Assembly (NCBI RefSeq): GCF_000179575.2
Contig: NC_015636.1
Span: 186,001-250,000 of the forward strand
Direction of reading: 5' to 3'
Source: Methanothermococcus okinawensis IH1
Lineage (GTDB): Archaea > AGJL01 > Methanococci > Methanococcales > Methanococcaceae
Length of the DNA: 64,000 nucleotides
The position numbers and the translations under genes were made by a program. Of the stretch, positions 4,777 to 6,663 are shown piece after piece. Position 1 is the stretch's first letter. Every line of letters begins with the position of its first letter. The notes under the pieces are model-generated. The model did not search any database. It saw nothing but the letters and a program-made list of their open reading frames with translations, and had not been told where the DNA came from.

Positions 4777-4820
4777 ATTATAAATCTTATAACATATCAT
4801 TTATTTATTGAGGTGGTATC

Positions 4821-6014
4821 ATTAAAAAATTAGCTGTTTTATTTATGAGCTTGGCAGTTATTGGAATTGTCATGCTTTGTGGATGTGTTGGAAACAATAC
4901 CAACAATAGCAGTAGTAGCAGTAGTAATGCGGCCGCAAGTATGCCAATGGTAAAACTTGTAAATTGTAAAGGTCAAGGTTCAATGCCTCAGCTTCTAAGC
5001 ACAAAAGAACTTGATGCTGTAATTGCATGGGAACCTATGCCAGAAATTCTAAAAACAAAAAATATAGGAAAACCTATTATATATAGTCAAAATTTACCTC
5101 CAAAAGGCATGTGGAAAGACCATCCATGCTGTGTTATTGTAGCATCAGATAACGCACTAAAAAATAATAAAGTTGCTGTGGATGAATTTTTAAAATTAGT
5201 GGTTTTATCTACAAATGAGATAAACAATAACAAAAGCCTTGCAATAGATGCAAGTGCCTATTGGCTTGGTGTAGATAAATCAGTTGAAAAATTATCTGTG
5301 CCTCATATTGAATATTTCACAAATCCAGAAAAAGATGTTCCTGGAACAATAGAATTTGTAAAGGTTATGAATTCTCAAAAATCCCTTACAGGTAAATTAA
5401 AAGGGGTAAATGATAAAGATACTATCGTAAATACATTATTCGATTTAAAACCATACAATACCGTTATGGACGAAATAAAAAATAATAATTCACCAAATGT
5501 TAATGATAATAATATACCAACATTAAGAGTAGCATATTTACCAACAGACCACCATGCAGCATTGTTTGTTGCAGCTAAATATCCAGAATTGTTTAAAAAT
5601 AAATACAATATATATTTAAAAGAGATAACACCTAAAAAACAGTATGAATTATACGAAAACGGTAAAAAAATAGCAAATATTAAATTAATACAGGTTTCAG
5701 AAGGTGGAGCAAAAATAATGACCTTAATGGCTCAAAATCAGGTTGATATAGGATTTAATGGAGTTCCACCAGCAGTATTTGCTATTGACAAAGGAACTAA
5801 TGCAAAAATCATTAGTGCATTACACGGTGAAGGTTCAGCAGTTGTTGTAAGAAGCGATATTCCAGTAAATAATTGGAAAGAGTTTGTAAATTGGATAAAA
5901 GAACAGCACAAAGAAGGAAAACAGGTAAAAATAGGTCATCCATTGCCTGTATCAATACAGTATGTAATGATAAAAAAGGCCCTTGAAGCAGAAAATATTA
6001 CATATACTGAATAA
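4821..6014 (+). CDS. NitT/TauT-type ABC substrate-binding lipoprotein with swapped halves
   Basis: This is a secreted binding protein of the SsuA/TauA type. The lobes are in reverse order. After the signal peptide and lipobox (LCGC), a Ser/Asn linker leads straight into the half that is normally C-terminal (QLLSTKELDAVIAWEPMPEI onward). An Asn-rich linker then joins the half that is normally N-terminal (TLRVAYLPTDHHAALFVAAK, VDIGFNGVPPAVFAIDKG), which runs to the stop. I start at ATT 4821, because AGGTGG precedes it and it adds the positive n-region KKLAVLF; the first ATG, at 4845, would remove that region. No permease or ATPase gene adjoins it. The ligand is unknown; sulfonate, nitrate or a similar small anion is the family range. 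Confidence 0.82.
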   Translation: MKKLAVLFMSLAVIGIVMLCGCVGNNTNNSSSSSSNAAASMPMVKLVNCKGQGSMPQLLSTKELDAVIAWEPMPEILKTKNIGKPIIYSQNLPPKGMWKDHPCCVIVASDNALKNNKVAVDEFLKLVVLSTNEINNNKSLAIDASAYWLGVDKSVEKLSVPHIEYFTNPEKDVPGTIEFVKVMNSQKSLTGKLKGVNDKDTIVNTLFDLKPYNTVMDEIKNNNSPNVNDNNIPTLRVAYLPTDHHAALFVAAKYPELFKNKYNIYLKEITPKKQYELYENGKKIANIKLIQVSEGGAKIMTLMAQNQVDIGFNGVPPAVFAIDKGTNAKIISALHGEGSAVVVRSDIPVNNWKEFVNWIKEQHKEGKQVKIGHPLPVSIQYVMIKKALEAENITYTE

Positions 6015-6116: not shown

Positions 6117-6554
6117 TTATTTTTTTAGAAATTTTGACAGAGCTCTGATTATATCCCCATCAGATACAACACCAATTAACTTATTATTTTCATCTACAAC
6201 AGGAAGTTGATTTATTATCTCACCTTTATGCCCGTATTCGTCCATTCTTCTTATGGCTTCAATGATTGATTTATTTGAGGTTATTGTAATTACATCCTTT
6301 GTCATAACATCGCTAACTTTCGTATCAAGGGTGTATTCATCCAATATTAAATTATATCCAATATCGGTGGTAGTAATAATGCCAATTACTTTTTTATCCT
6401 TATCTACAACAGGTAGGCAACTTATTTTGTATTTTAAAAGAGTTTCAAATGCTTTAACTACGCCAGTATCGGGGTGAGTATATATAACATCTTTTGCCAT
6501 AATGTCCTTAATTTTGATATTAAATATATTTGATATATCCTCATGCTTTTTCAT
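6117..6554 (-). CDS. Protein of two CBS domains
   Basis: The protein has about 145 residues and consists almost only of two CBS domains, roughly residues 14-70 and 78-140, which usually bind adenine nucleotides or S-adenosylmethionine derivatives. Repeated [16 protein letters not shown] and [16 protein letters not shown] patterns mark the two halves. I start at the ATG at 6554 because AAGGAGGG lies just upstream; the longer frame to 6608 begins with an unrelated hydrophobic stretch. It is a single gene, convergent with the binding protein and divergent from the DUF1611 gene. Its target is unknown. Confidence 0.85.
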
Positions 6555-6663
6555 AAATTCCCTCCTTGAAAATCTTAAATGTAAAATTAAAGTTAAAACT
6601 AAAAACATATTGATGTAAATATATATAAAATTAAATTTATTAAATATCCTATTTGGATTAAAT

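Follow-up and report, generated by a model that had tools for sequence, protein, structure and literature searches.

A circularly permuted SsuA/NMT1-type binding lipoprotein in Methanothermococcus okinawensis, probably rotated in place, and its permuted relatives

Introduction

Natural circular permutations are mostly old and known as distant pairs only. Among the binding proteins of ABC transporters, published cases make the kind of event a known one. Circular permutation has been described among betaine-binding proteins and relative to molybdate-binding proteins (PMC2395249). TpMglB-2 (Tp0684), for which a "Type Ic / Cluster Bc" was proposed, is a permuted, tethered binding protein, and its authors give tethering as a possible reason for the arrangement (PMC4990184). 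For the SAO system, with its binding proteins SaoX and SaoB, a role with a metal or organometal has been proposed (PMC13188914).

The gene considered here encodes a binding lipoprotein whose two halves stand in the reverse of the usual order. It lies in a window of 64,000 nucleotides from Methanothermococcus okinawensis IH1 (NC_015636.1, positions 186,001 to 250,000, forward strand); the genome is referred to below as G000 and the protein as P0001.

The gene and its parts

The frame at 4821-6014 on the plus strand runs through 397 codons without interruption. For comparison with ordinary relatives the chain is divided into three segments: A1 from the start of the ordinary chain to AIDKGT, A2 from there as far as ENITYTE, and B, which begins at VKLVNCKGQ and completes the chain. 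Ordinary proteins read A1-A2-B and P0001 reads B-A1-A2. The features are as follows.

4810-4815, plus strand: ribosome-binding site gaggtg, five bases 5' of the start codon, read from the sequence; GGTG and ATT, ATC or ATG occupy the same place in relatives
4821-6014, plus strand: permuted binding-lipoprotein gene, ATT start, 397 amino acids, stop TAA at 6012-6014
4821-4886, plus strand: residues 1-22, lipoprotein signal peptide plus anchor Cys, with L-C-G-C as the last residues, read from the sequence (residues 1-37 are disordered in the model)
4947-5477, plus strand: segment B, residues 43-219, the second half of the ordinary chain, from profile matches and segment classification
5121-5132, plus strand: HPCC motif at residues 101-104, conserved and invariant in two alignments
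5478-5522, plus strand: linker KNNNSPNVNDNNIPT, residues 220-234, from old C-terminus to old N-terminus
5523-5798, plus strand: segment A1, residues 235-326, the start of the ordinary chain (LRVAYLPTDHHAALF...), from profile matches and segment classification
5799-6011, plus strand: segment A2 (residues 327-397), which closes with ENITYTE, the point of entry into segment B in the ordinary chain, from profile matches and segment classification
6117-6608, minus strand: convergent CBS-domain gene; the same neighbour adjoins the ordinary-order orthologue in genome G010

Cys22, following L-C-G, is presumably the lipid-anchored residue. The first codon is ATT, not ATG. Permuted and ordinary genes share a start region of GGTG, then ATT, ATC or ATG, then Lys, Arg or Asn codons. 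Start sites were compared at loci L001-L013 and L025-L030, of which L011 was unreadable by pattern. Among genes of the window's own family of the order with a readable site, a non-AUG start (ATT, ATC or ATA) occurs in 8/9 permuted and 8/8 ordinary genes; the other family of the order has ATG or GTG in 11/11 readable genes, and every start in both families is preceded by GGTG. The non-AUG start appears to be conserved, perhaps for low expression.

The reversed order is seen with two family profiles. Positions 140-286 of 290 in TIGR01728 (SsuA_fam) match residues 53-205 of P0001, with a second stretch elsewhere; the scores of P0001 (53.9 bits) and the ordinary orthologue in G010 (66.7) both fall below the curated cut-off of 163.5. 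PF13379 (NMT1_2) likewise matches in two stretches, with positions 4-149 of 252 on residues 231-394, and its 81.5 bits lie above the gathering cut-off of 24.7. The family segments are out of ordinary order, second half first. A PF13379 search of the whole genome placed profile positions 155-241 at C2:190953-191231 and 4-150 at C2:191511-192005; since the second part of the profile precedes the first in the frame, the chain order is reversed. P0001 was the only protein matched in that search. The normal-order paralogue that might have been expected in G000 is therefore absent, and the ordinary version is instead an orthologue in a sister species. Chance is excluded by the conservation of the arrangement, at 60-83% identity, in eight further genomes.

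The initial annotation had described swapped halves of an SsuA-like protein ending where the second half would normally begin, and both points hold: the profile matches are reversed, the order is kept in 9/12 genomes of the genus, and by segment classification ENITYTE is the point at which the ordinary chain enters segment B. The linker described between the halves is present as well, but its extent is corrected to 15 residues. Less exact is the description of the halves as the two lobes of the protein. We take the chain of such proteins to leave lobe 1 for lobe 2 near strand KIISALHGEGSAVVV and to return near AVIAWEP. As the cut falls between these two crossings, it probably lies inside lobe 2 and not between the lobes, in keeping with the order of secondary structure in the models. 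Both new ends and the lipid anchor would then sit on lobe 2, with the old ends on lobe 1 joined by the linker.

Selection and predicted fold

Nei-Gojobori dN/dS over seven pairs ranged from 0.035 to 0.231 for the A half and from 0.094 to 0.300 for the B half, indicating purifying selection on both halves. The AlphaFold2 model of P0001 (pLDDT 88.3, pTM 0.83), built from a shallow alignment of 12 rows, predicts the linker well and falls under 50 only at residues 1-37. The ordinary Methanocaldococcus orthologue (L032), modelled on an alignment of 11 rows, scored similarly (pLDDT 88.9, pTM 0.85). The strands and helices of the P0001 model are the series of the ordinary orthologue in rotated order, so that the full set for a two-lobed ABC binding protein of the type II fold is present in the prediction. 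With an open frame of 397 codons, low dN/dS and a confident model, the product is probably made and folded, as was initially proposed.

Structure searches treated the two models very differently. With Foldseek, the ordinary model matched 1158 PDB chains at E <= 0.001, led by a binding component from S. aureus (3un6) with CmpC, TauA and SsuA close behind, so that SsuA/TauA/NrtA-like proteins stand near the top. The permuted model gave only three PDB matches at that threshold, the best being OpuAC of B. subtilis and one an NMDA receptor. A VIA-align comparison of the P0001 model with OpuAC gave Z 8.7 and rmsd 5.4 over 205 aligned residues, where Z near 8 alone may reflect a common arrangement only. 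Searching the sequences of solved structures with P0001 returned nothing useful (best E 0.59). Collinear structure searches thus overlook the nearest relatives of these permuted proteins, and annotators are warned that family profiles break such proteins into two weak matches.

Distribution in the genus and order

Relatives were sought in 61 genomes, 12 of them from the genus Methanothermococcus. Nine of the 12 carry a full-length collinear match and hence the permuted form, G010 matches in two pieces and is ordinary, and G002 and G011 gave no match. Among the other Methanococcales, the A half lies upstream of the B half in all 23 genomes with a match (G012-G034), and G035 had none. Classification of the frames by segment profiles agrees for each locus fetched. 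The rotated order is therefore not that of all related species, being shared by most of the genus but not by G010 or the remaining Methanococcales that have the gene. In one genome from the other family of the order, the gene, of ordinary order, is fragmented (G028:C1:1119611-1120674).

The locus itself is shared. Downstream of the gene, the window and the ordinary locus of G010 (L048) agree in the order and orientation of families 1 (reverse), 5, 6 (reverse) and 7. Plasmid records held no relative of P0001 at 1e-5.

Permutation across the family

Matches to the permuted profile extend well beyond the order. They were found in 120/394 genomes in a first wider search, in 319/392 genomes of the phylum of G124 (about 75 full-length and collinear by hand count) and in 52/292 genomes of the phylum of G224 (about 15 by hand count). 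Frames were classified with three segment profiles, a gene fetched twice being counted twice, and gave 108 B-A1-A2, 92 A1-A2-B, 14 A2-B-A1, two A2-B-A1-A2 and two A2-B-A1-A2-B-A1; as permuted matches were fetched by preference, the counts do not measure frequency. The trees omit five partial frames (L037, L038, L039 twice and L219). The 218 classified frames comprise 196 different sequences, or 168 after thinning at 88% identity (80, 72, 12, 2 and 2 in the same sequence of orders).

All three cyclic orders of the segments thus occur, and three cut sites can be recognized: the junction of A2 and B, the junction of A1 and A2, and a site within A2 (L154 and L156). The family also contains in-frame tandem doubles of the whole permuted unit, about 790 residues long, at L120:1072-3441 and L121:1015-3393. 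Their repeats are 83% (L120) and 72% (L121) identical in DNA, and in L120 no signal peptide lies between them.

On a quick tree of the 168 rows, the five orders require 11 changes where the least possible is four; such counts are unrooted, so gain and loss are not distinguishable. Smaller careful trees were made from rows chosen by hand. The 28-row tree pairs L154 with the ordinary L165 (100/99) and L156 with the ordinary L169 and L183 (89/82), and a clade of L154 with L156 is rejected (p 1.2e-10). On the 48-row tree, from which Methanothermococcus and L061 were omitted, the B-A1-A2 rows still require three changes forced by starred branches, a single clade of them is rejected (p 5e-36), and the A2-B-A1 rows form one clade (94/93). 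These trees point to six or more changes: in Methanothermococcus, in Methanomicrobiales, in a set we take to be Archaeoglobi-like, in the A2-B-A1 group, in L154 and in L156. The rows we likewise presume to be Thermoplasmatota-like perhaps share the origin of the Archaeoglobi-like set, or perhaps arose apart. Among these changes there may be reversions to the ordinary order. L154 and L156 each come from a single genome with a fragmented assembly; L061 (from G205), with a long branch and odd composition, was not counted as an origin and may be one more.

L154 begins with what we take to be a twin-arginine-like lipoprotein signal, the same as in its ordinary sister, and L156 has a tail, presumably of the PGF type, the same as in its ordinary sisters. 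In both cases, then, the domain has rotated between targeting signals that remained in place. On balance we lean towards viewing the family as a natural rotation series of at least six independent permutations at three cut sites, in which the tandem doubles would be the surviving expected intermediate and the signal peptide, C-terminal anchor and transporter operon would be unmoved.

Origin of the rotation in Methanothermococcus

A careful tree of 57 rows places the nine permuted rows of the genus in one clade (96/87) whose sister is the ordinary protein of G010 (99/96). Forcing all 32 permuted rows of that tree into one clade costs 77 log units and is rejected (AU p 6.4e-5). The same test on each half alone (40 rows) also rejects one clade, with p 0.0032 for the A half and 6.3e-5 for the B half. 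The nine rows are weakly supported as a clade by each half alone (97/54 and 90/65), and the best A-half tree does not unite the Methanococcales, although forcing them into one clade is not rejected (p 0.454). Since neither the whole-protein tree nor that of either half allows a common origin with the permuted Methanomicrobiales proteins, the permutation appears to have happened in situ in this lineage.

The gene is very probably a functional permuted orthologue of the ordinary Methanococcales SsuA/NMT1-type lipoprotein, rotated in place after the split from G010 and, most likely, one that serves a distant permease and ATPase pair. Once the lineage of G010 had diverged, the portion of the gene for the mature protein would have been rotated at its locus, leaving signal peptide, start-codon context and position unmoved. 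The chain would have been opened between A2 and B and its old ends joined through the short linker. As the likely route, the mature domain would first have been duplicated in tandem, in frame, and the outer halves of the double then deleted. The product should fold as an ordinary two-lobed binding protein with its lipid anchor, judging from topology, now on the other lobe, and would deliver its ligand to a single SsuC/SaoP-like permease and ATPase about 450 kb away.

Duplication was the route suggested initially, and in-frame doubles within the family make it plausible; the locus itself shows no trace of discarded outer halves. The same lack of a trace, with the final arrangement alone in view, would suit a course in which the halves became separated and were then fused in the other order without tandem duplication. 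We regard that course as unlikely, because no split-gene form of the halves is present among the classified frames, whereas whole-unit tandem doubles exist in L120 and L121. Somewhat less probable again is a permuted ancestor of the subfamily, from which Methanococcales and bacteria would have returned several times to the ordinary order. Unrooted counts are blind to this distinction, and permuted proteins are common in neighbouring clades. Ordinary order, however, is that of the superfamily at large, and the permuted Methanothermococcus rows nest beside ordinary G010 with ordinary rows in all the other branches of the order, so an ancestral permuted order needs several reversions against one gain.

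Acquisition of the permuted gene as a whole from another archaeon, with replacement of the native gene, is very improbable. Methanomicrobiales, an example of such a donor, have permuted proteins with the same order and cut site, but P0001 is only 31-35% identical to them, whereas its identity to its permuted counterparts within the genus is 60-83% and to the ordinary protein of G010 80/62% (the two halves). The rejection of a common clade for the whole protein and each half, and the occupation of the ordinary gene's locus, also argue against it. An assembly artefact or decaying pseudogene, which the odd arrangement and lack of an adjoining transporter gene might call to mind, is hardly credible given low dN/dS and an uninterrupted frame in nine genomes, one in a single contig and G000 in two. 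Rotation in place of a functional gene therefore remains the preferred account.

Probable transporter partner and candidate ligands

The absence of adjoining transporter genes had been pointed out from the start, and correctly, yet it sets the permuted gene apart from nothing: none of the 20 Methanococcales rows, permuted or ordinary, has a permease or ATPase within 1.6 kb downstream. Outside the order, a permease lies within that distance on the same strand in 67/74 B-A1-A2 rows, 52/58 ordinary rows and all rows of the other orders (12/12, 2/2 and 2/2). The permease adjoining the permuted gene at L033 has one match in G000, a strong one (54%) at C2:644307-645047, and matches in 33/35 Methanococcales genomes, 32 of them at E below 1e-80. 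It belongs to an orphan permease and ATPase pair at C2:643.3-645.1 kb, about 450 kb from the permuted gene, with no binding-protein gene beside it in G000. The surroundings (L236:2913-7910, G000:C2:640.9-645.9 kb) hold PhoU-type and NikR-like regulators, a gene for hydroxylamine reductase and a small lipoprotein unassigned to any family. G000 has six PF00528 permeases in all, and the nearest NCBIfam names for the orphan pair are SaoP and SaoA, all below cut-off. By exclusion and by adjacency in other archaea, the permuted protein most likely serves this distant SsuC/SaoP-like permease and ATPase.

Leads to the ligand conflict with one another, predicting either an organosulfur or sulfonate compound or a thiophilic metal species. 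The HPCC motif is present in 59/80 B-A1-A2 rows and 36/72 ordinary rows, and its conservation suggests a thiophilic or thiol ligand. Several gene neighbourhoods were noted in passing. At L244:2673-8081, beside a binding protein with the third cut site, cysteate synthase and sulfopyruvate decarboxylase lie between permease and ATPase; these enzymes lead to coenzyme M precursors, and the gene run may represent a coenzyme M link. At L054:2-6762 the permuted protein gene stands in a run with an MtaA-like methyltransferase, a corrinoid protein, a RACo-type activator, MtrH, permease and ATPase. Metal regulators of the DtxR/MntR type lie close to the gene for the binding protein at L041:11806-12189 and L035:5731-6222, from genomes unrelated to each other, and L035 has a nickelochelatase-like gene too.

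Comparison with known systems

Two congeneric species have the permuted and the ordinary orthologue, respectively, at the same locus, with identities of about 80% and 62% for the two halves. This rotation, with its apparent recurrences in the family, serves as an experiment of nature in how proteins withstand circular permutation. Further permuted and ordinary pairs in the family are L154 with L165 and L156 with L169. With such pairs the steps, cost and benefit of the rearrangement can be put directly to the test on natural proteins.

Within the SsuA/TauA/NMT1_2 type (PF13379, TIGR01728), P0001 shares the lipoprotein nature and all parts of the fold, passes the Pfam cut-off, and is encoded in a genome with a permease and ATPase of the same transporter type; it differs in that the chain order is ordinary there and rotated here. 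OpuAC and other glycine-betaine-binding proteins offer the best structural match, collinear over model residues 42-357, but at 12-14% identity, and P0001 gave no match to the OpuAC family PF04069 at E <= 0.1; the permutation there belongs to another branch of binding proteins. To SaoX of the SAO system (NF040735) P0001 is a weak match, with 20.4 bits against a cut-off of 300, and SaoB (NF040727) gave no listing for P0001 at E <= 0.1; SAO proteins have selenocysteine where P0001 has an ordinary Cys-Cys pair. TpMglB-2 is likewise a naturally permuted, tethered binding protein, but it is a Type I sugar-binding protein of another fold class and cut site, representing one permuted family with poor similarity in the permuted part.

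The open-access literature searched yielded no report of this protein's family or of such recurrent permutation, and none joining circular permutation with methanogens and ABC transporters. Relative to the systems above, what is apparently new is this family, with its three cut sites and tandem doubles, and a rotation bracketed at one locus within one genus.
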